From Owenia fusiformis (Eukaryota > Annelida > Polychaeta > Sabellida > Oweniidae): DNA of 64,000 bases. The DNA lies in the NCBI GenBank assembly GCA_903813345.2, contig CAIIXF020000008.1:7700366-7764365 (forward strand), read 5' to 3'. Of the stretch, positions 6,748 through 58,000 are shown one piece after another (position 1 is the first letter of the stretch; every line of letters begins with the position of its first letter). Both the position numbers and the translations under genes were made by a program. The notes under the pieces are model-generated. The model ran no database searches. It was given only the letters and a program-made list of their open reading frames with translations, and was not told where the DNA came from.

Positions 6748-7217
6748 ATTGAATTTAAATTTCACGAATTTTACAAGTTCAGAAGTGCGTGCCGGGCTAT
6801 GTTTGCCCTTTCTGCGTCGTTGTACACTTTATATGGTCCACGCTTGGACTTCATGTTATTTTTAGCAATTTGAACTTCAGTTTCTATAATATCGTCGATG
6901 TCATTATTAAGCCTAGGCCCATTGGTAGTAGTTGGCCTGACTAGCCAACGTAAAATAGACATGTTGGTGGAAATCATCCAATTATCGCCCAATAACACTA
7001 GACGAAACGTTTTACACAAAACGAAATGCATGTTGTAGTTCTTCTTACAGATGTAGGAATGGAGGGATCAGAAGTTGACAAAATGCATCTGAGCCCCGGG
7101 TTAAAACAAATTCCCGGGGATTTAATTGGCAATATCGCGACGATAATTTTTCGCAATTTTCACACCCTCGCGAAAAGCGCGAAACTAAATCGCACGCGAA
7201 TAATACCGGGCGTACAG
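6748..7217 (-). mobile_element. truncated psq/HTH-type DNA-transposon derivative
   Basis: This is an inverted copy of the element at 41890-42464. Its minus-strand frame (7031 down to 6771) encodes the same peptide up to HALLN, then is cut by a deletion. The outer end at 7217 carries the terminus CTGTACGCC (read on the minus strand) followed by TA. The other end is missing and joins R1 sequence at 6747. Confidence 0.8.
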
Positions 7218-8525
7218 TATTGTACAAATCTGCCATGTCCTGTAAATCTGGGTACAAAGAACTGACTGATGGCACCAATGACAATAATCTACCAGCTTTA
7301 GCTGAAAAAATAGCAATCTTAAATGTACTTACATGTCATTTTGTTCCCCAATTTATTCAGTGTATTTATTGTCATTTTTACCTAAAAACATATTTTAATT
7401 TTATATTCTATAATGTGGTTTGACAGTTTATTTTATTTTTTTGGAAATGACTGAAAGGAAATTGATTTGTGGGGAAGCCAAATGATTGTCTTGAACCACA
7501 ACTAGAATTTAAAATCTTTTTGACCATTGATTTCCCATAGGGCTCTGTGAATATTATGTTTTTAGCACCTCATCTAAAACATTAGCCACCGTTCCTGCTT
7601 CAAGGTAGGATTTGTTTTTGGAAGATTCTTTGATTTACTCTTCAATTGCTTCCTTTTAGCAATCAATATTCTTTGTTTGTCTCAATTGATCTTTTCATCT
7701 TTTGATTTTTCCAACTTTCTAATATACTTCCCATAGCTATGCTATCCCATAAAGCAATGTCAATTTTGTTGTAAAATATCAGTAAAAGGTCATGGTGTTT
7801 CTTATAATAGAATTAGGCCTACACTGCCACTTCAACTTGCCAAGGCAGGGTTGAAGTGGGACACTATGTGGTTTGAAATATAAACAGTTTATTCCTGCAT
7901 TCAACATTGTAACTTTAATCCATCTACTCAGTGTTCTAGATATACCCCCATAAGGTTTTATTTAGCTTATGCAGCGGAACCAGTCTCCATTTTAAATTTA
8001 TGGTAGCATGCTCGATTTGCTGTCAGTTTTAGTTTATGGACATTGGCCGACTCCGGGTGAAAACCCTTGTGTGAGTCCTAGCTTTATAAGCTTCCAAATA
8101 CGATTGAAAACCCCTTTCTGGTAGTAGCACCTGTGAACAAGATTCTCACTGAATATATAAGCACAAATGCCAAAGGGAAGGGTGACTAAAAATTTTAAAG
8201 AAACCCAACAAGAAAAGCAAACTGTAAGTGTAAATCTGTCATAAGAAAAGTAGACCCTATATATCCCAAAACCATAATCTAACATAAAAAGAAACAATGT
8301 CTAACACCCCCCCTCCCCCCTCCAATCGAGAGCCAATATTACAATCCAGGACCAGAACACCAAGGGACATTTCATTCATACTGAAGTCATTACAATACAT
8401 GTTGAAGAAAAATTGAAAAAATTGATAGCTAATACTCATAACATCAAAAATAGTTGTAGAATGTAGATACTAGTACTCATAAAAGAGTATTCAGTCTCAA
8501 ATGATGTGGAGATATACTTTATAGG
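6911..8525 (+). repeat. 1615-bp tandem duplication, unit 1
   Basis: The unit starts at cctaggcccattggtag and contains the right part of the psq-type element (to 7217) followed by R1 (7218-8525). Unit 2 begins at 8526. All landmarks I compared are offset by 1615 bp (for example 7026 and 8641, 7045 and 8660), with only scattered substitutions such as tttttcgcaa against tttttcacaa. Confidence 0.92.
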
Positions 8526-10140
8526 GCCTAGGCCCATTGGTAGTAGTTGGCCTGACTAGCCAACGTAAAATAGACATGTTGGTGGAAATCATCCAATTAT
8601 CGCCCAATAACACTAGACGAAACGTTTTACACAAAACGAAATGCATGTTGTAGTTCTTCTTACAGATGTAGGAATGGAGGGATCAGAAGTTGACAAAATG
8701 CATCTGAGCCCCGGGTTAAAACAAATTCCCGGGGATTTAATTGGCAATATCGCGACGATAATTTTTCACAATTTTCACACCCTCGCGAAAAGCGCGAAAC
8801 TAAATCGCACGCGAATAATACCGGGCGTACAGTATTGTACAAATCTGCCATGTCCTGTAAATCTGGGTACAAAGAACTGACTGATGGCACCAATGACAAT
8901 AATCTACCAGCTTTAGCTGAAAAAATAGCAATCTTAAATGTACTTACATGTCATTTTGTTCCCCAATTTATTCAGTGTATTTATTGTCATTTTTACCTAA
9001 AAACATATTTTAATTTTATATTCTATAATGTGGTTTGACAGTTTATTTTATTTTTTTGGAAATGACTGAAAGGAAATTGATTTGTGGGGAAGCCAAATGA
9101 TTGTCTTGAACCACAACTAGAATTTAAAATCTTTTTGACCATTGATTTCCCATAGGGCTCTGTGAATATTATGTTTTTAGCACCTCATCTAAAACATTAG
9201 CCACCGTTCCTGCTTCAAGGTAGGATTTGTTTTTGGAAGATTCTTTGATTTACTCTTCAATTGCTTCCTTTTAGCAATCAATATTCTTTGTTTGTCTCAA
9301 TTGATCTTTTCATCTTTTGATTTTTCCAACTTTCTAATATACTTCCCATAGCTATGCTATCCCATAAAGCAATGTCAATTTTGTTGTAAAATATCAGTAA
9401 AAGGTCATGGTGTTTCTTATAATAGAATTAGGCCTACACTGCCACTTCAACTTGCCAAGGCAGGGTTGAAGTGGGACACTATGTGGTTTGAAATATAAAC
9501 AGTTTATTCCTGCATTCAACATTGTAACTTTAATCCATCTACTAAGTGTTCTAGATATACCCCCATAAGGTTTTATTTAGCTTATGCAGCGGAACCAGTC
9601 TCCATTTTAAATTTATGGTAGCATGCTCGATTTGCTGTCAGTTTTAGTTTATGGACATTGGCGGACTCCGGGTGAAAACCCTTGTGTGAGTCCTAGCTTT
9701 ATAAGCTTCCAAATACGATTGAAAACCCCTTTCTGGTAGTGCAAATAGCACCTGTGAACAAGATTCTTACTGAATATATAAGCACAAATGCCAAAGGGAA
9801 GGGTGACTAAAAATTTTAAAGAAACCCAACAAGAAAAGCAAACTGTAAGTGTAAATCTGTCATAAGAAAAGTAGACCCTATATATCCCAAAACCATAATC
9901 TAACATAAAAAGAAACAATGTCTAACACCCCCCTCCCCCCTCCAATCGAGAGCCAATGTCACAATCCAGGACCAGAACACCAAGGGACATTTCATTCATA
10001 CTGAAGTCATTACAATACATGTTGAAGAAAAATTGAAAAAATTGATAGCCAATACTCATAACATCAAAAATAGTTGTAGAATGTAGATACTAGTACTCAT
10101 AAAAGAGTATTCAGTCTCAAATGATGTGGAGATATACTTA
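8526..10140 (+). repeat. 1615-bp tandem duplication, unit 2
   Basis: Near-identical second unit. It differs from unit 1 by a few substitutions and small indels, such as an extra gcaaat near 9740. At its right edge it continues into tagtgtttacag, which is the true continuation of the repeat, whereas unit 1 is cut there by the start of unit 2. Confidence 0.92.
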
Positions 10141-22119: not shown

Positions 22120-23977
22120 ATACTTGCCAACTTACCATATTTTTACGGGAATCTACCGTAAATTTTTCTATTTCCGTAAAAACAATGACAAACTACATTA
22201 AGAAAATGCCCGTAAAAAATGTCTACCGTATTTTTCCGAAATCTAACATAAATTTTTTTAAATCGTTTTTTCCATGAGAACGGCCATAAAATCTACCGTA
22301 AATTTTTGAAAATCTACCGTATTTCTGCTAAAATCAACAGTATTTTCATTCAAACTACCGTAAAATCTCCCTTTTTTGTTTGGAAATGCTGAAAATTGAA
22401 GTCTTTCTGTACTGTCCCTGTAATATTCCTTTACCAACCCGAATATAAGGCATTGGCAGGATATTGAATCAATTCAAAATTCTAAATCACATTCCCCATC
22501 CATGAAGTTCGTAAACAGACCGTAGAACGTTGTAGCTACGTTTATTCAGTTTGTACACAGTTTAAAACCGATTGTTCTGGTGTGGTAGCTTTTTTTGTTA
22601 ATCCGTTCATAAGCAGTTTTTAATACGTTCATCTCGTCTTTATTCCGTCTGCAGTACATGGGTATCAAGTTTAGATCGGGTTAAATTGTGCGTTTGGTCT
22701 ACACAACGTAACCAAGCAGTTCAATTATGTACTTAATCAGTTTAAAACAGTTGACAATTAGTTGTACCTCGTTCTCAATACGTCCTAATATGTTACTGAA
22801 TTATCCACCAAATTTCCATACTGTTGAACTCGTTCTAAAATAGTAAACATTGTGTCCCTAATCCGTGCAGAACGCATACTACCTTATTTTCCTGATTGGT
22901 ACTCACGGCTGCAAATCACGCCTGACTACACAACGTCGTAATATGTCCGTAGTAGGATTGAAGTACGACTCTTCCGTTCGTAGTGTGTCCCCAGTGCGTC
23001 CAGGTCGTCTTAAGTATGTTGTCACTCGTGCTGATTGCAGAACGTGACTATCATCAGAAAATTTTGAGCATGCTTTAAGTTTTGAGGACCTACTCGTTCG
23101 ATTAGTTTCATTAAGTTTGTAACAGATCCCAAACGGTTCTTAGTGGGTTCTTAGTACGTCAAATCCATTCGTACACAGTTTTAGCCCGTTTTCGAGAACG
23201 TAGTGAGAACTAGTTTGGTGTGATAGTATGGTTAACATACTGTTTTTTCATTATTCATCGAAAACTACCGCAAAACTACCACATTTTTTCAAATTCTTCC
23301 ACAAAACTAGTTTTTTTAATTTACCGCAAAAACACATTTTTTCAAAATCTACCGTAAAAGTACCGCATTTTTCGAAATCTACCGTAAAACTACAGCATTT
23401 TTTATAAATCTTCCGCAAAACTTCCAGTTTTTCAAAAAACTATCGTCAAAATCTACCGTTTAATTACCGCATTTTTTCAGAATCTTCCGCAAAACTACCG
23501 ATTTTTCAAAAAACTACCGCATTTTTTAAAATCAACCGTAAAACTACCGCATCTTTTATAAATCTTCCGCAAAACTACCAGTTTTTCAAAAAACTATCGT
23601 CAAAATCTACCGTTTAATTACCGCATTTTTTCAGAATCTTCCGCAAAACTACCGATTTTTCAAAAAACTACCGCATTTTTTAAAATCAACCGTAAAACTA
23701 CCGCATCTTTCTAAATCTTCCGCAAAACTACCGCTTTTTTTTAATTTCTACCGCAAAATTACACTTTTTTCAAAAATCTACCCCAAACCTCTGAAACTAC
23801 AGTATTTTTTAAAAATCTACCGCAAAAACTACCTTTTTTTTAAATCGACCGCAAAAACTACCACATTTTTGTTGAAAAATACCGCAAAATCTACCGCATT
23901 TTGAAAAAAAATTTCACAAAAATACAGCAATTTAAAAAAAATCTACAGCAAAATTTTTGTCTCAGGTTGGCAGGTAT
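22120..23977 (+). mobile_element. inverted-terminus element filled with ctaccgtaaaa array
   Basis: The left end ATACTTGCCAACTT and the right end AGGTTGGCAGGTAT are inverted relatives of each other and of the termini at 60489 and 62114. Inside, at 22130-22370 and 23260-23960, is a degenerate array of roughly 22-28-bp units of the form aatctaccg(t/c)aaaactaccgcattttt. The middle (22380-23250) is a non-array segment with recurrent cgttc/agtacgt words and no supported gene. No clear target duplication is seen at this copy. Confidence 0.7.
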
Positions 23978-26346
23978 TTATATTTTAAATTCGTGAACTC
24001 AAACGAATATATATTACAAGAAATATAATTTAATTCCTTGTTGTTGTGAATTATAAATTTTGGGTTGTCTAACCCATGATCTGTCTTATTAAATAACTTT
24101 GTAATATGAAATTTACTTTTATCTTTCATCATCCTTTGTAAAAATTTATACTCATATGAGAATAGAAAATGGACTGCTAAAAGAGGAGTACAATCTGTAG
24201 GTACATGTATTCCTACATTCTGATGTAAAACTGTATTCCAAACTTAACAAATATATTATCAATAAGAAAGCCTAACACCTCACAGAATTGTACTGCAGTG
24301 AAAGAAATATACGTTCACTAGAAAAGAAAGCCCTTTTTGAATTACAGTTAACATATTTAAATTTACTACCCGTCATTGTCTTTTTAATGATTTCAAATAT
24401 TTCATCTTTTAACTTGTCATGAGGAATTGATGTGTTAGGTGTAGAAAAAGCCCACGTTGAAATACATTTAACTTATGAATAAATCAGGTCATTAAATTTT
24501 GATGAAAGATCTTTGGAATTTTTAAGGATCCACATATGGTTAACCCCGGAATTTCTAAAAATAGCCTTACAATAAGTCTCCCTATATGTCTCACTCTTAA
24601 ATAATTAATATTTAGGAGTAAACTATCTCACATTTTTGTGACGGTATTGATTTGAAATAGAGCCTGGAATAGAACCTTAAAATCCTGTAAGAGATGCTCT
24701 ATAATCCCTACAGAAATATGGCACTTACCACAAATAGTTATACTCCTGAGCTCTACACTTGAATTACACACTAAAATGTCCTTTAAATTCTCTATTTCAA
24801 AACAATAGCACCATTTTTTGTAAATCAACTGTCATTGGTGTATCACAAACCCAACAATTACATAAAAACTGTCCTCAGCAATATCATAATTAAGCAGTGT
24901 CTCACTCTAAAATAATTAATATTTAGGAGTAAACTATCTCACATTTTTGTGACAGTATTGATTTGAAATCGAGCCTGGAATAGAACCTTAAAATCAATGT
25001 TTGATTTTACAAACTTTGTGAATGCAACATTGCTCCACCTATGTCATTAACTCAATATGTATGAAAATTACAGGAATTCGAGCACTTTCTTGTGTTAATC
25101 TTTAAGTATCTAACTCCTGTTAGAAACTTTTTGATCGACCCTTGTAGGTTCAAAATACTCAATGTTATTTAATTGCCATCAAATCTATAAAAAATATTGT
25201 AAAATTGCACCTGCCACGGTTGTTATATGATTAAATTCATACTGGAAATCAGGTATTCAGGAATTGTTTAAATTTTGAAAAATTGTTATTTTAAAATCGG
25301 CCTATTGGTGTATTAATGCAATATGATACAGCAATTCACCTCATCACACGGTCTCGTTTAGACCGTTCCGTATTAGTGGTTGCATTGACATTAATACGGA
25401 ATAAATCATACCATTTCATGAAAAATGGTGACCTTGTCCTACGGAAATTGAGATTATGCTTCACAGCACGGCAATACTGTATAGCACATGCTCCGGGGAA
25501 TTGATTCTACTTTCCATAGACACCAAACACATCTCTGTCGATAGAATAATAATAAAAAAGCCTTAAGGCCCCAACCTCCTTTGTTTACATTTACAAAAAC
25601 GTGAAAAAATGACAAAAGTTGTCATCACTTGTTAAATCTAAATCTGTTGAAACAGATTTCACTTGCTAGCGACAGATACTTTAGTCTTTCACGAACCGAA
25701 CATGTCAGTTTGGTTCGTAATATCTCCAAATAAACAATTTCAACATTTTGAAAAACTCGATGCTAGTCCACGTGTTTATAAGGAATGGGTATACAGTTTC
25801 CAAGTGTTAATACGGAATGGGTGTTAAATCATATACATTCCAGGGGAAATCACAATTTCCATAAAACTTGCATTGATAATTGTTCTGATAGCTTGCAAAT
25901 GGCACGTTAATCGACGACGTCAACACGTCCGTCAAACGCAAGGATTTAATGTACATAAACAGTGTTCTCTTTTTTTCTTAAGTATATCAACGGTGTTAAC
26001 GCGATAGCTTTACGCCCATTAATAGTAAAGATAGGTTGTTGTACTGTTTCTCATTGCATCTAATAGGTAGTAGTTTACCAACGGCTTCAACTCAGCAGCC
26101 TGACATCTGTCAACACCAGGTACCGCTTGTTCATAAACATTCATTCTTTTTCATTATTTTATGTAACAAATAATTTCATCCCTTTATGTAACAGTTTATG
26201 TGAGGACGCCAACTGTTGGCTTGAAACACAATAAAATCTTGAATATTGTTTATCACGTAACCACTCCAATTCTTGTGGATAGAATAAACATGATAATAAA
26301 AGCACCAACAAACATCTGAGTGTTTTGTTAACCAAGTTTGACCCAG
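22288..26346 (+). repeat. 4.06-kb tandem duplication, unit 1
   Basis: Begins at aaaatctaccgtaaat and ends at aagtttgacccag. The next unit starts at 26351. The two units are nearly identical over about 4 kb, with isolated substitutions (for example accaagcag against accaagtag), so the event is recent or homogenised. The unit cuts through the element at 22120-23977, so unit 2 has only that element's right part. Confidence 0.95.
24592..24995 (-). repeat. 95-bp direct repeat flanking a short minus-strand frame
   Basis: The block ataattaatatttaggagtaa to agaaccttaaaatc occurs at about 24600-24690 and again at 24908-24997, and again in the duplicated unit at about 28693 and 29001. Between them is a minus-strand frame (24828-24628) with a CxxC. 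It might be LINE debris, but I do not recognise it. Confidence 0.6.
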
Positions 26347-26350
26347 CCAG

Positions 26351-29300
26351 AAAATCTACCGTAAATTTTTGAAAATCTACCGTATTTCTGCTAAAATCAA
26401 CAGTATTTTCATTCAAACTACCGTAAAATCTCCCTTTTTTGTTTGGAAATGCTGAAAATTGAAGTCTTTCTGTACTGTCCCTGTAATATTCCTTTACCAA
26501 CCCGAATATAAGGCATTGGCAGGATATTGAATCAATTCAAAATTCTAAATCACATTCCCCATCCATGAAGTTCGTAAACAGACCGTAGAACGTTGTAGCT
26601 ACGTTTATTCAGTTTGTACACAGTTTAAAACCGATTGTTCTGGTGTGGTAGCTTTTTTTGTTAATCCGTTCATAAGCAGTTTTTAATACGTTCATCTCGT
26701 CTTTATTCCGTCTGCAGTACATGGGTATCAAGTTTAGATCGGGTTAAATTGTGCGTTTGGTCTACACAACGTAACCAAGTAGTTCAATTATGTACTTAAT
26801 CAGATTAAAACAGTTGACAATTAGTTGTACCTCGTTCTCAATACGTCCTAATATGTTACTGAATTATCCACCAAATTTCCATACTGTTGAACTCGTTCTA
26901 AAATAGTAAACATTGTGTCCCTAATCCGTGCAGAACGCATACTACCTTATTTTCCTGATTGGTACTCACGGCTGCAAATCACGCCTGACTACACAACGTC
27001 GTAATATGTCCGTAGTAGGATTGAAGTACGACTCTTCCGTTCGTAGTGTGTCCCCAGTGCGTCCAGGTCGTCTTAAGTATGTTGTCACTCGTGCTGATTG
27101 CAGAACGTGACTATCATCAGAAAATTTTGAGCATGCTTTAAGTTTTGAGGACCTACTCGTTCGATTAGTTTCATTAAGTTTGTAACAGATCCCAAACGGT
27201 TCTTAGTGGGTTCTTAGTACGTCAAATCCATTCGTACACAGTTTTAGCCCGTTTTCGAGAACGTAGTGAGAACTAGTTTGGTGTGATAGTATGGTTAACA
27301 TACTGTTTTTTCATTATTCATCGAAAACTACCGCAAAACTACCACATTTTTTCAAATTCTTCCACAAAACTAGTTTTTTTAATTTACCGCAAAAACGCAT
27401 TTTTTCAAAATCTACCGTAAAAGTACCGCATTTTTCGAAATCTACCGTAAAACTACAGCATTTTTCGAAATCTACCGTAAAACTACAGCATTTTTTATAA
27501 ATCTTCCGCAAAACTTCCAGTTTTTCAAAAAACTATCGTCAAAATCTACCGTTTAATTACCGCATTTTTTCAGAATCTTCCGCAAAACTACCGATTTTTC
27601 AAAAAACTACCGCATTTTTTAAAATCAACCGTAAAACTACCGCATCTTTTATAAATCTTCCGCAAAACTACCAGTTTTTCAAAAAACTATCGTCAAAATC
27701 TACCGTTTAATTACCGCATTTTTTCAGAATCTTCCGCAAAACTACCGATTTTTCAAAAAACTACCGCATTTTTTAAAATCAACCGTAAAACTACCGCATC
27801 TTTCTAAATCTTCCGCAAAACTACCGCTTTTTTTTAATTTCTACCGCAAAATTACACTTTTTTCAAAAATCTACCCCAAACCTCTGAAACTACAGTATTT
27901 TTTAAAAATCTACCGCAAAAACTACCTTTTTTTTAAATCGACCGCAAAAACTACCACATTTTTGTTGAAAAATACCGCAAAATCTACCGCATTTTGAAAA
28001 AAAATTTCACAAAAATACAGCAATTTAAAAAAAATCTACAGCAAAATTTTTGTCTCAGGTTGGCAGGTATTTATATTTTAAATTCGTGAACTCAAACGAA
28101 TATATATTACAAGAAATATAATTTAATTCCTTGTTGTTGTGAATTATAAATTTTGGGTTGTCTAACCCATGATCTGTCTTATTAAATAACTTTGTAATAT
28201 GAAATTTACTTTTATCTTTCATCATCCTTTGTAAAAATTTATACTCATATGAGAATAGAAAATGGACTGCTAAAAGAGGAGTACAATCTGTAGGTACATG
28301 TATTCCTACATTCTGATGTAAAACTGTATTCCAAACTTAACAAATATATTATCAATAAGAAAGCCTAACACCTCACAGAATTGTACTGCAGTGAAAGAAA
28401 TATACGTTCACTAGAAAAGAAAGCCCTTTTTGAATTACAGTTAACATATTTAAATTTACTACCCGTCATTGTCTTTTTAATGATTTCAAATATTTCATCT
28501 TTTAACTTGTCATGAGGAATTGATGTGTTAGGTGTAGAAAAAGCCCACGTTGAAATACATTTAACTTATGAATAAATCAGGTCATTAAATTTTGATGAAA
28601 GATCTTTGGAATTTTTAAGGATCCACATATGGTTAACCCCGGAATTTCTAAAAATAGCCTTACAATAAGTCTCCCTATATGTCTCACTCTTAAATAATTA
28701 ATATTTAGGAGTAAACTATCTCACATTTTTGTGACGGTATTGATTTGAAATAGAGCCTGGAATAGAACCTTAAAATCCTGTAAGAGATGCTCTATAATCC
28801 CTACAGAAATATGGCACTTACCACAAATAGTTATACTCCTGAGCTCTACACTTGAATTACACACTAAAATGTCCTTTAAATTCTCTATTTCAAAACAATA
28901 GCACCATTTTTTGTAAATCAACTGTCATTGGTGTATCACAAACCCAACAATTACATAAAAACTGTCCTCAGCAATATCATAATTAAGCAGTGTCTCACTC
29001 TAAAATAATTAATATTTAGGAGTAAACTATCTCACATTTTTGTGACAGTATTGATTTGAAATCGAGCCTGGAATAGAACCTTAAAATCAATGTTTGATTT
29101 TACAAACTTTGTGAATGCAACATTGCTCCACCTATGTCATTAACTCAATATGTATGAAAATTACAGGAATTCGAGCACTTTCTTGTGTTAATCTTTAAGT
29201 ATCTAACTCCTGTTAGAAACTTTTTGATCGACCCTTGTAGGTTCAAAATACTCAATGTTATTTAATTGCCATCAAATCTATAAAAAATATTGTAAAATTG

Positions 29301-30439
29301 CACCTGCCACGGTTGTTATATGATTAAATTCATACTGGAAATCAGGTATTCAGGAATTGTTTAAATTTTGAAAAATTGTTATTTTAAAATCGGCCTATTG
29401 GTGTATTAATGCAATATGATACAGCAATTCACCTCATCACACGGTCTCGTTTAGACCGTTCCGTATTAGTGGTTGCATTGACATTAATACGGAATAAATC
29501 ATACCATTTCATGAAAAATGGTGACCTTGTCCTACGGAAATTGAGATTATGCTTCACAGCACGGCAATACTGTATAGCACATGCTCCGGGGAATTGATTC
29601 TACTTTCCATAGACACCAAACACATCTCTGTCGATAGAATAATAATAAAAAAGCCTTAAGGCCCCAACCTCCTTTGTTTACATTTACAAAAACGTGAAAA
29701 AATGACAAAAGTTGTCATCACTTGTTAAATCTAAATCTGTTGAAACAGATTTCACTTGCTAGCGACAGATACTTTAGTCTTTCACGAACCGAACATGTCA
29801 GTTTGGTTCGTAATATCTCCAAATAAACAATTTCAACATTTTGAAAAACTCGATGCTAGTCCACGTGTTTATAAGGAATGGGTATACAGTTTCCAAGTGT
29901 TAATACGGAATGGGTGTTAAATCATATACATTCCAGGGGAAATCACAATTTCCATAAAACTTGCATTGATAATTGTTCTGATAGCTTGCAAATGGCACGT
30001 TAATCGACGACGTCAACACGTCCGTCAAACGCAAGGATTTAATGTACATAAACAGTGTTCTCTTTTTTTCTTAAGTATATCAACGGTGTTAACGCGATAG
30101 CTTTACGCCCATTAATAGTAAAGATAGGTTGTTGTACTGTTTCTCATTGCATCTAATAGGTAGTAGTTTACCAACGGCTTCAACTCAGCAGCCTGACATC
30201 TGTCAACACCAGGTACCGCTTGTTCATAAACATTCATTCTTTTTCATTATTTTATGTAACAAATAATTTCATCCCTTTATGTAACAGTTTATGTGAGGAC
30301 GCCAACTGTTGGCTTGAAACACAATAAAATCTTGAATATTGTTTATCACGTAACCACTCCAATTCTTGTGGATAGAATAAACATGATAATAAAAGCACCA
30401 ACAAACATCTGAGTGTTTTGTTAACCAAGTTTGACCCAG
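26351..30439 (+). repeat. 4.09-kb tandem duplication, unit 2
   Basis: Second unit. Landmarks are offset by 4063 bp on the left side (22865 and 26928) and by 4093 bp on the right side (24628 and 28721, 25316 and 29409). The difference is one extra 30-bp array unit near 27455. No intact gene is carried: the open frames at 26928, 28721 and 29409 are the same short frames as in unit 1. Confidence 0.95.
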
Positions 30440-31675: not shown

Positions 31676-34408
31676 CTACTTTCTCAACATCCAAATGTCA
31701 CAATAAACACCAGTCCATCGAGGAGTACATATGCACTTGTAGATCCCATCCAAGCCAGGTGTGAGATTGAGACATGTGGCTCCATTTTGACATTCATGTC
31801 TTTCACATGGTTGCTTTTCTATCTCACATTCATCCCCTCTAAAATTTTGAGTGCAACAACATCTGTTTTGAAAACAAGCCCCTCCATTCAAACATGGTCC
31901 TCTCACTGGACATTCTATATCAGAATCTGGTGGGATCACCTTTACAATGCAGTTATATTCTGGTCTCATCCAGCCAACAATACATTTCTTATACCCTGTT
32001 TGACAGTCGCATGTGTAATGCCCAGAGCAGTCATTCTGGGGCTGGCAGAATATTTCACATAGATGGCCATAATGCCCAGGTGGACATCTATGAATGTATG
32101 TCTCACAGTCTGTTCCTTCAAAGTTTTGGCAACAGTTACATGTATAGCCTCCCACTTTTGGATTACATGTTCCCCCATTTTTACATGGACTACTTGCACA
32201 ATAATCTATGAAGGTCTCGCATCTGTCTCCAGTGTAATAATTATCACAGCAACAACCTTCTCTGTAACATCTCCCATAAACGCAAGGAGAGTCCCTAGGG
32301 CAGTCTGGGTCTACTGGTGGAGGAATCGTTTTTATTTTACAGTCAAAATCAGGGCTAGTGTATGAATCCAGACATACCTTAGTTCCTGTATTAGGATTAC
32401 ATGTATAATGGCCTCTATCACAATCATCTGCTGCAAGACAGTGCACATTGCAAGCTGGGGGATTGTAGTAATTCAATGGACATTGTGGCTGGTATGTTTC
32501 ACAATGAATCCCAGTGAAGTCCTTCAAACATGAACATATGAACCCACCCACCATAGAATTACATGTTCCTCCATTGAAACAAGGTTGACTTGTACAATAA
32601 TTAATGTAGGTTTCACACCGATGTCCAGTGTAATGTTCATCACAGCAACAACCTCCTTTATAACATCTCCCATGAATGCAAGGAGAGTCCCTTGGACAGT
32701 CTGGGTCAGTTGGTGGAGGTGTTGTCTTTATTTTGCACTCCATCTCAGGATAGGTATACCCAGGAAGGCATACCTTTGCCCCAGTATTTGGGTTGCATAT
32801 ATAATGACCTCTATTACAATCATCGGCAGCAAGACAGAACACATTACAACCAGGTAAATTGTAGTAGTTTGGTGGACATTGTGGATCATATGTTTCGCAG
32901 TGTATCCCAGTGTAAAATCTTGGGCATGTACAAATGTATGATCCAACCATAGAGCTACATATGCCACCATTGAAACAAGGTTGACTTAGACAGTAATCTA
33001 TAAGTGCTATACATCGAGGTCCAGTGTAGTGTTCATTGCAACAACATCCTTGTCTGTAGCACCTTCCATTACCACATGGGGAGTCAGCTGGACAATCTGG
33101 ATCGGATGATGGAGGGATTGTTTTAATTTTACAATTATTTTGAGGGCTTGAATATCCTGGAAGACAAACTATTGCTCCAGTATTTGGGTCACATGTATAA
33201 TGACCTCTCTCACAATCATCTGCAGCAAGACAGTACACATTGCAAGCAGGCGGATTGTAGTAATTTGGTGGGCATTTTGGATCATATGTTTCACATTGGG
33301 TTCCTGTATATTCAGGATGGCAAATGCATGTATAACCCTCATCAGTTGAGATACATGTCCCATCGTTCTTACAAGGATTGCTTGTACATGAGGTTCTTCT
33401 GATGTCACAAAAGTCCCCAGTCCACTGATCAAAGCAACAGCATTGGTTTTTATGGCACTGTCCCCCAACACAAACACCATTTTCTGGACATTCAGGGTCT
33501 ATAATTGGAGGAACTGTCCTTAATGTACAGTTTATATTTGGCAAAGCCCAACCATCGAGACATATTTTCTCACCAGTGGTTGTGTTACACTCATAATGTC
33601 CATGTATGCAGTCATTTGCAGATTTACATAGAGTTTCACAGTTCCTACCATAATAATTTGGAAGACACATACACTCGTAACCTATTCCAATATTTTTCCT
33701 ACATGTGCCCTGATTTTGGCATGGCTCACTCAAACATTCATTGATAGGCATCTCACAAAATTGCCCTGTCCATCCACTGAGACAACAACATGATTTCTTA
33801 TGGCATTGACCATTAACACAGACATGCTCATGGGGACACTCAGTATCAAGTGGTGGCGGTATGATTCTAACTGTACAATTGATTTCAGGAGTCTCCCAGC
33901 CTTCAAGGCAATCCTTTGCACCTGATATACTGTCACATGTATAGTGACCATTTTGACAGTCGTCAGCTGGTTTACAGTAAATGTTACAAAAGGAACCATA
34001 GTAGTGTGGTCCACAGAGACATTGATATCCATCAGGGACTGTTACACATGTTGAACCATTACCACATTGGTTATTGGAACAATCTATTGGTATATCACAA
34101 GTTGGTCCAGTCCAGTTTTCGAAACAACAGCAGGATTTATTGTGGCACTGACCAGCCCCACAAGTTGTTCCTGTATCTGGACAATCTTCATCTATAGGCT
34201 TAGGAATGATTTTCAGATTACAATTCAGTTCTGGCAGGTCCCACCCATCTTTACACACCTTGGCACCAGTCGTTGCATTACATGTATAGTGCCCTCCCTC
34301 ACAACTGTCTTCTGCCTTGCAGAACACTTGACACTCTGGTCCATAGTAGTTAGGAGGGCAGGTGTCATGCCCATTCCCATCAGACCTTGCACTGCTTGAG
34401 GAGCAGCC
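31676..34408 (-). CDS. multi-DSL/EGF repeat protein, terminal exon (910 residues)
   Basis: A single exon, open in phase 0 from the acceptor (tattatag, ending at 34409) to the stop TAG. It encodes seven units of about 130 residues. Each unit has a DSL-like module (for example CPPNYYNPPACNVYC, then DDCERGHYTCDPNTG, then C.PGY......C), then an EGF-like module with a constant CCC motif (CPRDSPCIHGRCYKGGCCC...TGxRCE), then in most units a classical EGF (C.SxPCxNGGTC...C.C...TGxxCE). The DSL hallmarks YY(G/N), GHYTC and GW/GY are clear, so it is related to Notch ligands, which normally have one DSL domain. Every DSL module has one extra Cys (the C of DDC), and every following EGF-like module has one extra Cys (the middle of CCC). 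I infer an inter-module disulphide. In units 2 and 3 the DSL start is merged with the last part of the preceding EGF. No membrane segment follows, so it is probably secreted. Upstream exons with the signal peptide were not found. Its role is unknown, with a Notch-ligand-like or antagonist role possible. Confidence 0.88.
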   Translation of the reverse strand, partial: GCSSSSARSDGNGHDTCPPNYYGPECQVFCKAEDSCEGGHYTCNATTGAKVCKDGWDLPELNCNLKIIPKPIDEDCPDTGTTCGAGQCHNKSCCCFENWTGPTCDIPIDCSNNQCGNGSTCVTVPDGYQCLCGPHYYGSFCNIYCKPADDCQNGHYTCDSISGAKDCLEGWETPEINCTVRIIPPPLDTECPHEHVCVNGQCHKKSCCCLSGWTGQFCEMPINECLSEPCQNQGTCRKNIGIGYECMCLPNYYGRNCETLCKSANDCIHGHYECNTTTGEKICLDGWALPNINCTLRTVPPIIDPECPENGVCVGGQCHKNQCCCFDQWTGDFCDIRRTSCTSNPCKNDGTCISTDEGYTCICHPEYTGTQCETYDPKCPPNYYNPPACNVYCLAADDCERGHYTCDPNTGAIVCLPGYSSPQNNCKIKTIPPSSDPDCPADSPCGNGRCYRQGCCCNEHYTGPRCIALIDYCLSQPCFNGGICSSMVGSYICTCPRFYTGIHCETYDPQCPPNYYNLPGCNVFCLAADDCNRGHYICNPNTGAKVCLPGYTYPEMECKIKTTPPPTDPDCPRDSPCIHGRCYKGGCCCDEHYTGHRCETYINYCTSQPCFNGGTCNSMVGGFICSCLKDFTGIHCETYQPQCPLNYYNPPACNVHCLAADDCDRGHYTCNPNTGTKVCLDSYTSPDFDCKIKTIPPPVDPDCPRDSPCVYGRCYREGCCCDNYYTGDRCETFIDYCASSPCKNGGTCNPKVGGYTCNCCQNFEGTDCETYIHRCPPGHYGHLCEIFCQPQNDCSGHYTCDCQTGYKKCIVGWMRPEYNCIVKVIPPDSDIECPVRGPCLNGGACFQNRCCCTQNFRGDECEIEKQPCERHECQNGATCLNLTPGLDGIYKCICTPRWTGVYCDIWMLRK

Positions 34409-34602
34409 CTATAATAATCACATAACAGAACAAAATTATAATGAAAAATAAATGTAAAAGAGTTTTAGCTTGTAGTTTTATTGATTTTCTACAGTGCAAT
34501 TTATTAAAGGCTATTTCAAACCGGGGTAGGTTATATTTTTTAATTTTGGCGCCTGTTACGATGCCACAATGGAAGTGGCTGCTATGTTCTCTGAGGGAAT
34601 TA

Positions 34603-35089
34603 CAGGCCTGTCAACTTGGGAACACCTAACATGAGTGACTTGGAAATGTTGAACACCTCCCCTCAAAATGTGGACACCTTGGTCCAAATCTGAGCACCTT
34701 GATCCAAATTTTGAACACCTTGGTTTAAATTTTATTACATCTTGCCAAATTTTGAACACCTCAAATTTTTCGCACTCGCTACGCTCGCGTTGCAAACATC
34801 AATCAACGGGAGGGGGGGTAGGTACGAAAAATTTCGAACGGAATGCTTAACATATACGTAATTCGCGTGAAAAGTCCGAATGAAATGCGTATGTTTTTTT
34901 TTCGGCGTTCGTATTTTTGCTGTGTAGACGAACTTTTTTAGAAATTTTTCTACAGAAATATTTTTGCTTGACAATTACCAGGTAAAATGCGTATTTGCGT
35001 GACTGTCACGCAAAATTAACTGGCGTGACTTCAAATTCTTCAGCAAATGCGTGACAAATACGCAAATTGCGGGACAGTTGACAGGCCTG
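34603..35089. mobile_element. MITE, larger relative, with GAATTA target duplication
   Basis: The ends are CAGGCCTGTCAACTT and CAGTTGACAGGCCTG, flanked by GAATTA on both sides (34597-34602 and 35090-35095). The right half is the inverse of the 307-bp MITE at 5968. The left half contains a short internal array with the word gaacaccttggtccaaat. It lies just upstream of the DSL/EGF exon, within the presumed intron of that gene. Confidence 0.9.
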
Positions 35090-35099
35090 GAATTAAAAT

Positions 35100-35858
35100 A
35101 GCCTTACTTTATTAATCTCTGTAAAAAACTTGTTCTTTTCAAATTAGTTTGTGATCCTCATTGAATGCATCATGTAATCTTTCTCTTATTATTCATTGCA
35201 TTGCATCAGGTTTTTGATTTAAAGGTATGGTGTCATACCTTTTTTGTCATTTTATCATATTACTCACCATATACGCATAACAGATTAGAAGAAATGGTAA
35301 TATTGTATTCATCCTCAACATGAATATGAGCAAAATATGATAACAATGCACATAAACCTTTTATAACCAGTTAATTCTAAAAATTCAGAGATAACATGCT
35401 ACTTACTGATAAAGGAAGGTCCATTGGATTATAGTCTTACCTTTTCAAAACAAATCTGGGAAATGTACATGAAAGAAGTAAAGACAAATAAGAAAGCTAC
35501 ATTGTAGTTTACCAAAGCATAATTTGTCTGCCCTTTTTATCTATTAAGCTTGATTAGTTGTTACAGGTAGAAAGAGTATAGTCATAGGAGCTATTGGAAC
35601 TCCCCTTAGATTTAGTTCAAAACAACGTTATCAAACAAGATGTTTTTGTGAACTTCAAATGAGATGACTCACTTGAATCACATTTTACAAATTATCTTTA
35701 AGTATTTTTACAAAAGTAGAATATTACTACTGTAACAATGTATTTGTTTGTATTATCAGAAATGCCAGCTTAGTGTTTTGTAAGGAAACTTTAAAGGGTA
35801 ATGTTAAGCTTCTCATAAAAAACAACATGTTGTTATTTATGGATTGATTGAATATTTA
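35100..35858. other. non-coding stretch upstream of the DSL/EGF exon
   Basis: No exon with a signal peptide or DSL/EGF pattern could be found. It may be intron. Confidence 0.35.
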
Positions 35859-36189: not shown

Positions 36190-37300
36190 TTACAAAATTA
36201 TCTACAAATGACAGGGCCGAGGCTGAAATCAGCATTATTGGCCCTGTTAATACAAAGTTTATTCAAATTTACATAATAGCAACAAAATGACTACCAACAT
36301 ATATGTATGCATGGCAGGAATGTGTTAAAACTATATAATTATATCAATGCATTCACACAAAAAGGATGTAAAATGCTTCAATATTGAAGAATTGCATGTT
36401 ATGCTAACTCCATCTCTGCCATACATTAAGATATTCAGCTTTTGCTCTACAGAGCATCCTGTAAAGAAAATGTTCATTTCTGGCATGTTCCTGAGTTCCC
36501 CCCAAAGTTTCTCTCTTATAACATTCAACAGAGGGCATTTGAAGATTAGATGCTTTGTAGGTTGTTGTTTAAAACCACAGATGCATTTGGGACTGTCAAT
36601 ACCTTGAAAATTATGTTGAAAAAGATGACCAGTAAAAATGAAATCACATCTTGTTCTATTCAGTAAAATTTCTTCTTTTCTTGTAAGATCCAGGTTTGTG
36701 GTTGTTAAATGCTTCATTGTTCCTGAATATTTACGTAAATTGGTTTTGAAAGTGACTCTTGATGGTGCACTTTTTAGATAATTTGGAATGGCTTCCCATT
36801 CTCTTATGGCATTTATTATTGGTGACTTTTGTGAACGTGCAGTTAACTTTGGAATAGTGTATTCTCTTGATTTTCTCAAGTTAATATTATGTTGCTTATT
36901 TTGATAACTATCAAAAATTTTTTGAACATAAGTTGGGACCAATTTCTGTCTAACATCATACATTAAACGTAAACGTTTCTCCTTTCTCCGCTCAGACAGG
37001 GTATTCCAATTTAGACATTTCAAAACCTTTACAGTAGATGTTCCATGAATGCAGCCACTTACTAATAATGCTGCCCTATAATGAACTTGGTCTAGTTTCA
37101 TAATATTATACTTGGTAGATTTTTCAAATAATATACTTCCATACTCTAAGTTTGGGAGAATAAATGATAGATACATCTTCTCTAGGTGTTTAGCTCGAAT
37201 CTTGGTCTTAAGAACTTTCAATGGATTTAACATTATATTACATGCTTTTATGATATCCTGTAAATGGGCTTCAAAATTAATTAATATTATTAATATAACA
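36190..37300 (-). pseudogene. 5'-truncated LINE, 3' part of ORF2 with terminal hairpin
   Basis: The minus-strand frame (37233-36331, open upstream to about 37295) begins after the reverse transcriptase catalytic core: LEKMYLSFILPNLEYGSILF is the usual YxxxIxPxLEYG motif of the post-catalytic region. It ends with a zinc-binding motif, PKCICGFKQQPTKHLIFKCP (CxC...H...C). The ORF is intact over 300 codons but has lost its reverse transcriptase. Downstream, at 36211-36247, a hairpin with arms acagggcc and ggccctgt fits a LINE 3' UTR structure. The insertion orientation matches the DSL/EGF gene. Confidence 0.8.
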
Positions 37301-37309
37301 GGGTGAAGT

Positions 37310-55000: not shown

Positions 55001-58000
55001 AGCGGATTGAACAAAACAGTTAGTCTCCGCCAATTTTTTGAAAAATCACTGTACTATATAGCTAGACCTCAAACATCTGCATTTTACTGATGGGTCTGTC
55101 ATTTCACCAAATGAAATAGCAGCCAAACATTCAAAAATTTGCCCAATCCGCCAAATTAAACGGTGCCAAATTAAAGTAATTTACAGTACTGAATTTTTAC
55201 CTCATCTACCAAATGTTTAAAAATATGTGTAAGGACAAAAATCAAATACAATATATTGACCATCAACAATCTGCAGTGTCAAGAGATAGAAATTAAAGCT
55301 TCGATGTTGATATATTACACATAATGAGTTTTAACCCATAAAAAATAGCCCCAAGAATAACATGCTGAAAAACTTAAAATGATTAAAATAGAGAAAGAGT
55401 AATTTACAAGTAAATATAAATCAAACGGCCATGAGGATGTAAAGTATAGTACCAAGATCAGATATATCAGATAAAAGTTATTTTTAAGGTTGTGTCAATA
55501 TACCAGTGCAGCTAAAAATTACATAATTAATTTGTTGGATGGTGTGGAGGGAGGTGATGGGGGTCAAGAGAAACTTTGAAACCATTGATGTTTCCAATAT
55601 AAAACTTATATTGCTTATATCACTTATATCGTTTTTGAAGTTATTATTTGAAGAGCAGTTTCAAAATGGGAGGGGAGCTTTTGCATTGATATATTGACTC
55701 AACTCTAACAGTGTATATAAGCATGCAATGAATTACATTCAAATGTTTTGGGGTGTCTTACAGAAAAACACAGTAAAAGATGATAGCAATAAGATGGCAG
55801 TTATTCTGTTGTTTGATAGCAGTAACAGTTTATGTTCTACTTTGTACATTGTTTTATTCAAATAAAATTGATAAAAGGGACCAAAAATTGAAAACTGAAG
55901 GATATATACACACCACAAAGACACATGCAACTCAACGAGTGCTTCGATATTTTGACAATGTTGTTAAGAAAAATGTCTTTCTTGTGGGGTATGATAATCC
56001 GGAAGAATGCGACGATGATCCTCTTTGCCTTATAAACATGAAGAGACCTCCCAAGGTCAAAAAAATGAGGCAAAAACGCTTCAAAAAACAGAACAGGAAT
56101 TAGTGACAATTGTTTGTAAAACTATGAACAGATTGGACCTTGTCAAGCGAATGATTGAGTCAGTCTGGAATTACTACCCAAAGACTCAAGTTATCGTTGT
56201 TGACGATTATTATAAAGATTATTTAGCTGACGTTCTATGGCAGGAATTTTTAACCAATCACAGTATTGTGGATTACGTTCAGCTTGGTGAGAATGCTGGT
56301 ATAAGTCATGGTCGAGAGATTGGTGTTAGTTTAGTGACAACAAAGTACTTCATGCAAATTGATGACGATTTTGTCTTCACTGATAATACAAATTTAACCA
56401 AGTTAATCGATGTATTAGAGACTACAGATCTAAGCATTGTGACTGGTGACTACAAAAATATGATGTTTACAGGGATACTAAAAGTACATCAAAATATCGC
56501 ACAGAAGAAAGGCAAACAGACAATGCTGTATCATTTCCCAGAAACAGCCCATGGTCTTATACCTGGGTTTAAAAACTGCTATAGTGTTGATCTTGGGCCT
56601 AATATATACCTGGCTAACACAGAGCATATACGATACATCAAACCATGGGATCGTGAACTTAAAGCACAAGAACATACTGATTTCTTTCTCGTAGTCCTAA
56701 TAGCGGGACTTAAAGTAGGAGCGTGCACTGATGTTCCCCTCAAGGAGTATGGAGTGCCGGACAGACTCAAAACTCGGGCAAAGTATCCAAAAAAGGGTGT
56801 TTACATTATGAACTATTTAAGAAAATGGAAAATTACTGAATGGTTCAAACAATGTAGTCCCAAACAGTATTATTCTAAAGAAATGGACAATGGAAAATGC
56901 AAATGGAATAGCACATATCAATTCTTTGATGGAGATCCAAACATACTTCATAATATACTTATTGACAGAAATTAATAAAATATAACATGTAATTATCAAA
57001 TTTTGAACATAAAGTCAGCATCATTGATAATTTAAATAGAGATGAATATTCTATCCAGTTTGACTTAATAGAAAATGCCTAGTCTTTTGTGTCACATATC
57101 ACCAGTTTGACATAAAAAAATGGAATAATGTGACCAGTGTGATATAACAGAGTGAGATAAATGTGGCCAATGTGACATTTACAGAGTGGAATAAATGTGG
57201 CCAGTGTGACATTAACAGAGTGGAGTAATTGTGACCAGTGTGACATTAACAGAGTGGAATAATTGTGACCAGTGTGACATTAACAGAGTGGAACAATTGT
57301 GACCAGTGTGACATTAATGATAAATATAACCAGTGTAAAATCAACAGAGTAGAATACATGTGACAAGTGTGACATAACAGAGTGGAATAAATGAGCCAGT
57401 GTAACATTTTTAAGAAAATGTGACCAGTGTGACATAAAAGAGTAAAATAAATTTGACAAATGTGACAATATGAGTTGAATAAATTAGACCAGTATGACAT
57501 TACAGAGTGAAATAAATGTGACCAGTGCGACATTATAAGCATGTGCATGTACTCACAACAAGATTGAATAAATCTGGCAGAAAGAACTGCTCATCATTGC
57601 CAAATATGAAATCTGGTGGCTCTTCAGGGTAACAACTGTTGAACAACACTTCCCCTAGAAGTAGATAGAACATGACATTTGAAATTATTTTTTAACAAGA
57701 TGCTGAATAATAATCATTATTTAGTACTATATTTTGGGCATTTAATGCATTGCTACCCCGAGCACACAGTGCAAACAGGGTACAGTCTGTTGAAAATCTG
57801 ACATTTTACCTACCTGAAAATCTTTGAACCTTGCCAAAATGCTGAAAAGATCATGTGATATTTTGACCATAATAGGTAAAATTTATTGAGCACCCTGTTA
57901 AGAAAAATCTTGGGAATGTAACTGAAATGTTGTTCCTATCAAGCCTGAGTGGAATGAATCATTAAAATCTCTTCGCACATTGCAAAATATTTTCTATGAA

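Follow-up and report, generated by a model that had tools for sequence, protein, structure and literature searches.

DSL domains are commonly read as the sign of a Notch ligand, and the locus studied here raises the question of what a protein made of seven of them might do. The window, a stretch of 64,000 nucleotides, contained on its minus strand a single exon with an open frame of 910 codons ending in a TAG stop; the chance of a frame of that length staying open at the base composition of the window is about 2e-29. The initial annotation had described a repeating DSL / CCC-EGF / EGF pattern, seven times over in one exon, and this architecture was confirmed. The Pfam DSL model (PF01414) scored the translation at 103.6 bits in seven stretches (curated cut-off 24.2), making the modules true DSL domains by Pfam, and a regular-expression module table gave seven DSL and seven CCC-EGF modules. 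The EGF model PF00008, the second count that the annotation had proposed, also matched seven stretches, as did the Teneurin-type EGF model (PF25024). In a whole-genome scan with the DSL model, in which E-values are scaled to the genome, four of the seven window modules reached E 0.001. Each DSL was followed by a CCC-type EGF and then by a further EGF, amounting to 21 domains. The hallmarks said to be kept in all units held in part: GHYxC was present in 7/7 (GHYTC in five, GHYEC and GHYIC once each), so strict GHYTC was limited to 5/7, and YY(G/N) occurred in 6/7, unit 7 having HYG. The stop codon lay 7 residues past the last EGF, and no membrane segment or intracellular tail preceded it in the frame. 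MNNL/C2 was absent among the Pfam families of the window exon translation (E up to 1), and calcium-binding EGF, TB, lectin or other recognition domains were absent from the Pfam lists of this exon and of the four paralogous exons described below. The features of the gene are collected in Table 1.

Table 1. Observed and predicted features of the seven-DSL gene, in positions of the window.
Feature	Position	Strand	Basis
Possible TATA box TATAAAA, 44 bases upstream of the predicted ATG	35359..35365	−	weak
Predicted exon 1: 18-residue predicted signal peptide, phase-0 end at GTGAGT donor	35268..35321	−	exon scan, likeness to C12
Predicted intron GTGAGT...TATAG	34409..35267	−	
Exon 2: 910 codons and stop, seven DSL / CCC-EGF / EGF units	31676..34408	−	open frame, Pfam, regular-expression table
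Unit 1: DSL, CCC-EGF, EGF with last hairpin common to DSL 2	34016..34360	−	
Unit 2: DSL, CCC-EGF, EGF with last hairpin common to DSL 3	33668..34015	−	
Unit 3: DSL, CCC-EGF, EGF	33275..33667	−	
Unit 4: 132 residues	32879..33274	−	
Unit 5: 132 residues	32483..32878	−	
Unit 6: 132 residues, extra cysteine in second EGF (CNCC)	32087..32482	−	
Unit 7 and stop: second extra cysteine in DSL (TCDCQTG)	31676..32086	−	

Four large relatives of the window protein lay on further contigs of chromosome size (C1, C2, C10 and C12) and were encoded by exons of 2592, 2185, 1318 and 1526 residues, respectively. By the regular-expression table, the arrays held 7 (window), 19 (C1), 16 (C2), 10 (C10) and 12 (C12) DSL modules, 64 in total; the stricter Pfam stretches numbered 7, 16, 15, 9 and 7. 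The first DSL hairpin was missing in 3/64 modules (C1 module 17, C2 module 1, C12 module 8), and C12 module 1 was degenerate, with RFHC in place of GHYxC. The window copy stopped after module 7; C1 and C12 went on with further modules. At E up to 0.001, MNNL/C2 was not among the Pfam families matched by the C1, C2, C10 and C12 exons. The DSL model gave 63 matches in the 498-Mb genome, which is a lower bound, and 28 of these fell in the five arrays. The flanks of the five loci were compared on the plus strand at E 1e-10; the stretches covered were 0.6–2.7 kb on the downstream side and, on the upstream side, about 12 kb, or 29.6 kb in the case of the window gene. They had only scattered repeat-like matches in common, which gives no support to a recent segmental duplication of the locus as a whole. 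When translated frames from both sides of the five loci were compared in search of further exons, mostly repeats came up.

A 5' exon with a signal peptide, for which the initial annotation had looked to RNA-seq, was sought in the DNA by an exon scan, and a candidate was found. The frame of the window exon begins directly after an AG in phase 0, as do the large C1 and C12 exons; the C2 and C10 frames extend further upstream and an AG was chosen within them, which makes phase 0 an assumption for these two. Upstream of the window exon, 29.6 kb of sequence contained four signal-peptide exon candidates with a phase-0 donor. The best of these, MLRMNTILPFLLICYAYM followed by a GTGAGT donor, lay 0.9 kb from exon 2 and was the sole survivor at a stricter donor threshold. 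Controls for the strict scan (the two other phases and the other strand) gave four matches in five scans, so about one chance match per 30 kb is to be expected. The best support for the candidate is its likeness, in sequence, donor and phase, to the predicted peptide of the C12 paralogue, MRMYSVLQFLLLYCYM followed by GTGAGT 1.5 kb upstream of the C12 exon, which was found only with relaxed thresholds. Candidates for C1 and C2 (first scan) and for C10 (relaxed scan) are single predictions. The gene likely consists of two exons, with a predicted precursor of 928 residues, and the candidate signal exons of the window gene and C12 make it likely that the multi-DSL protein is secreted, as had been supposed. 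The TATAAAA motif is weak evidence, because this DNA has roughly one such motif per kb and none lies at a like distance in the paralogues (C2 at −82; C1 at −114 and −9; none in C10 and C12). AATAAA/ATTAAA hexamers were present 3' of the stop in 5/5 array genes, but in AT-rich DNA this is a weak indication.

Elsewhere in the window, a direct tandem duplication of 4.1 kb (22283–26346 and 26346–30439, 99.0% identical) contained ACCGCAAAACTACC-type minisatellites, and a second recent tandem duplication of 1.6 kb lay at 6911–10139 (99.1% identity). A 325-codon frame at 36331–37308 (−) looked, by eye, like the C-terminal region of a protein from a non-LTR retrotransposon and had no Pfam match. A 318-codon frame at 56019–56975 (+) encoded a family 2 glycosyltransferase domain (PF00535, 61.9 bits).

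The initial annotation had considered selection for the fold likely, and the substitution rates agreed with this. Using the method of Nei and Gojobori, in which high dS values near saturation are rough, the window gene compared with C12 (355 codons) gave a dS of 0.85 and a dN of 0.15 (ratio 0.18), with C10 a dN/dS of 0.12, and in its C-terminal part with C1 and C12 a dN/dS of 0.13. The ratio was 0.08 for C12 against C10 and 0.11 for the first module of C1 against that of C10. Within arrays, the twelve C1 repeats (66 pairs) had a median dS of 1.27, dN of 0.05 and ratio of 0.04. Saturated repeat pairs had been entered as ratio 0 (C1 6/66, window 1/3, C2 3/10, C10 0/10); without them, the median repeat dN/dS was 0.044 in C1, 0.141 in the window, 0.130 in C2 and 0.101 in C10. 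The coding sequence is under purifying selection, with dN/dS of 0.04–0.18 in all comparisons except one, a 672-codon C-terminal stretch of C1 and C12 with a dS of 0.10 and a dN/dS of 0.33, which suggests recent exchange or duplication together with weaker constraint.

Canonical DSL domains have six cysteines (PMC2770060). In the module table of the five exons, an additional cysteine was located in the DSL loop just before GHY in 61/64 modules, and the usual C-x-C of the next EGF was CCC in exactly these 61 (7/7 units in the window). Both modules followed by CVC instead (the first of C1 and the first of C10, which are mutually related) were without the extra DSL cysteine, as was C12 module 1, which had no EGF directly behind it. 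With seven cysteines each, neither the DSL nor the EGF can close alone, and the pair can, so that an interdomain disulphide is the simplest reading; the co-occurrence suggests a putative DSL–EGF disulphide clamp. The modules without the two cysteines grouped together (0.93) on a weak tree of short units, so the covariation may be a single evolutionary event, the tree being too weak for counting gains or losses of the pair. Total cysteines per exon came to an odd number in the window (139) and C12 (213), and to an even one in C1 (374), C2 (330) and C10 (194). In the two odd exons, at least one cysteine would be unpaired, lost with the signal peptide or engaged in an intermolecular bond; the window exon has a cysteine at residue 2, adjoining the predicted signal peptide, and cleavage of that peptide may take it away. 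A second candidate pair was formed by the CNCC of an EGF in window unit 6 and the TCDCQTG of the DSL in unit 7, with CSCC and TCDCQTG at the corresponding place in C1 and C12.

Both cysteine features also occurred in intron-rich DSL loci, the loci examined being part of those in the whole-genome scan and their neighbouring exons being assigned to one gene from order and strand. The extra cysteine was present in 19/19 DSL exons found there by regular expression, two of which (L019 and the first of L020) are nearly identical to each other. A CCC-EGF preceded the next DSL in 13 of the 19 by regular expression and in two more (L021, second of L020) by eye. For the other four, a CCC exon was not seen within about 0.2 kb (second of L024) or 1.6–1.9 kb (second of L025, second of L005, L007) of sequence, the spacing from DSL to CCC-EGF being 0.15 to 3.2 kb elsewhere. 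The first DSL module of L021, which the regular expression had missed, was without the extra cysteine, and its next exon had CVC. Exons of ordinary DSL type (L001, L002, L006) were likewise without the extra cysteine, and CCC was not seen in their 3-kb stretches. Four of the intron-rich loci, L023–L026 (C1:31838000-31857900, C1:31904000-31923900), form part of a cluster with long EGF runs, followed by an extra-cysteine DSL and then mostly by a CCC-EGF exon; one 1038-codon frame in it was nearly all EGF.

Could these domains still bind Notch? Consensus sites for O-glucose and O-fucose were both present in 47 EGFs, as in EGFs of the Notch pathway, so that a role in signalling would still be conceivable. 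In Jagged1, a conserved putative Notch-binding group comprises F199, R201, R203 and F207 (PMC3415683), and the substitution F207A lowers the binding of Notch-1 by Jagged-1 to background (PMC3888931). Phenylalanine was found at the F207 position in 0/64 modules and anywhere among the three final positions of the loop in 0/64; the degenerate C12 module 1 has one just past the loop, where a confident alignment is impossible. Arginine was retained at R201 in 2/64 and at R203 in 3/64 modules, both positions being approximate because the aligned loop has 8 residues in 53/64 modules against 7 in Jagged-1. The F199 position, also approximate, held phenylalanine in 14/64 and tyrosine in 38/64, a count that is meaningless for the three modules without a first hairpin. 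In the same genome, the DSL of L001, whose PDB match is Jagged-2 (5.5e-20), has all of F199, R201, R203 and F207 in place. Binding of Notch-type receptors had been one of the roles offered in the initial annotation; with F207 lost in the arrays, R201 and R203 rarely kept and an MNNL/C2 match absent, the canonical mode of binding is not supported.

The window gene, C10 and C12 each had two places, six altogether, where a single hairpin closed an EGF and opened the DSL behind it; these hybrid hairpins were probably inherited. The C1–C2 loop of DSL superimposes on the C5–C6 loop of EGF, and it has been proposed that DSL might derive from truncated tandem EGFs (PMC3415683). The shared hairpins bear on that proposal and are consistent with it.

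On balance, we lean towards a disulphide-clamped extracellular structural rod as the product of this gene, rather than a canonical Notch ligand. The two-exon gene would encode a secreted, cysteine-rich rod consisting of a signal peptide and 21 small disulphide-bonded domains, in which each DSL and the EGF behind it would probably form one clamped brick. The cysteine gained in what was the Notch-binding loop of DSL would bond the middle cysteine of CCC, and the ordinary EGFs would link the bricks into a stiff multivalent fibre. If straight, such a fibre may measure about 60 nm here and about 170 nm for the 19-module C1 (some 57 domains), at a presumed length of about 30 Å per domain; four Jagged-1 domains span 120 Å (PMC3415683). 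It would act by assembling with itself or by attaching to matrix partners within a secreted material such as tube, mucus, cuticle or connective matrix, and otherwise than by canonical Notch binding. A structural matrix role, which the initial annotation had also raised, fits better than Notch binding; nothing pointed to the shell or egg matrix that it had named as examples.

Three other explanations were weighed against the structural rod. The true DSL domains, the probable secretion and the 47 EGFs with both glycosylation consensus sites would suit a soluble multivalent Notch modulator, which would bind or cluster Notch or its canonical ligands through a changed interface and so block or tune signalling. 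A secreted DSL ligand does exist in C. elegans (DSL-1, PMC3415683), but the modules have no phenylalanine at or near F207 and rarely keep the two arginines, there is no C2 domain, the part of DLL4 in contact with EGF12 of Notch in their complex (PMC5538765), and the genome keeps a Jagged-like DSL with its contact residues in L001; we consider such a modulator unlikely. We would give slightly less credence to a cell-surface or innate-immune recognition family, whose diverse secreted arrays would bind microbes or self ligands. The existence of several genes with differing module counts agrees with it, as does the raised dN/dS at low dS in the C-terminal stretch of C1 and C12, but the whole-repeat comparisons indicate purifying rather than diversifying selection and the Pfam lists contain no lectin or other recognition domains.

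It is very improbable that the window gene is a decaying or unexpressed copy of its paralogues. Its array does end at module 7, where C1 and C12 continue, but the 2.7-kb frame is intact, both extra cysteines are kept in every unit and dN/dS against C10 and C12 is low (0.12–0.18). The candidate signal exon also argues against decay, as do, weakly in AT-rich DNA, the AATAAA/ATTAAA hexamers after the stop.

Apart from Notch binding, DSL may have been put to use a second time as a structural brick, in the form of a clamped DSL–EGF supradomain polymerised into giant secreted rods, an idea that we put forward tentatively. Just as tentatively, the Notch-binding loop could have become a disulphide anchor, in at least five array genes and several intron-rich loci of this genome. 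The units with hybrid hairpins would then illustrate, in a present-day genome, how DSL is proposed to have arisen from EGF, and the clamped brick, if real, would be a new extracellular building unit. As 64 DSL modules are without the F207 contact and 61 of them carry the loop cysteine, the residues should be checked before an invertebrate DSL protein is called a Notch ligand.

Among known systems, fibrillin-type matrix proteins are long tandem arrays of disulphide-bonded modules that form extracellular rods. The present arrays may work alike, but the calcium-binding EGF and TB domains of these EGF-rich proteins are absent from the Pfam lists of the arrays. In the parts of the fibrillin literature available to us, the DSL domain of Jagged-1 appears only as a control, and a link of DSL to adhesive or footprint proteins was not found in the open-licence literature. 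The EGF spacing of the arrays scores with the teneurin-type model, but the other teneurin domains are absent from the Pfam lists of the arrays.

By sequence, the best PDB match of the window protein was Delta-like protein 1 (4xbm). Canonical Notch ligands (Delta, Jagged/Serrate) resemble it in having DSL followed by EGF domains; however, they have a single DSL, C2/MNNL, a membrane anchor and the F207 contact, and none of these four was found in the window protein. Delta has been defined by a signal peptide, MNLL, DSL, at least nine EGFs, a membrane segment and an intracellular domain, proteins outside this definition being set aside as DSL-like (PMC5356439). Several DSL domains per gene are known from cnidarians and bivalves. 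Cnidarian genomes contain DSL-only genes with 1 to 11 repeats, left open as true genes or misassemblies, and one gene with MNLL and three DSL (PMC2770060). Among 138 lophotrochozoan DSL genes that were screened, EGF-free tandem DSL repeats were confined to bivalves, a second branch combined DSL, EGF and other domains, and genes with more than one DSL were mentioned (PMC8166818). In the present genome, L017 (C1:48005500-48010000) contained a 650-codon frame of tandem DSL-like units (PF01414, 162.9 bits, five stretches) without a PF00008 EGF match; as an EGF-free DSL array, it would extend such arrays beyond bivalves if the genome is that of an annelid, for which three weak matches on C6 to the annelid erythrocruorin-linker domain PF16915 are a hint (38.1, 30.7 and 28.4 bits against a cut-off of 27, the last one containing a stop). 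The mollusc haemocyanin domain PF14830 had no match, in a search whose controls were silent as well, and mitochondrial COX1 was not found in the assembly. Among the open-licence matches listed, neither alternating DSL/EGF arrays nor the extra DSL–EGF cysteines were described, although arrays like the present ones could already be in the tree of PMC8166818, whose Fig. S1 may hold DSL and EGF arrays. Multi-DSL genes as such are already published (PMC2770060, PMC8166818). In the portions of these papers that we drew on, the bivalve and cnidarian arrays are described as free of EGF, whereas those reported here differ in alternating each DSL with two EGFs, in arrays of up to 19 DSL modules.
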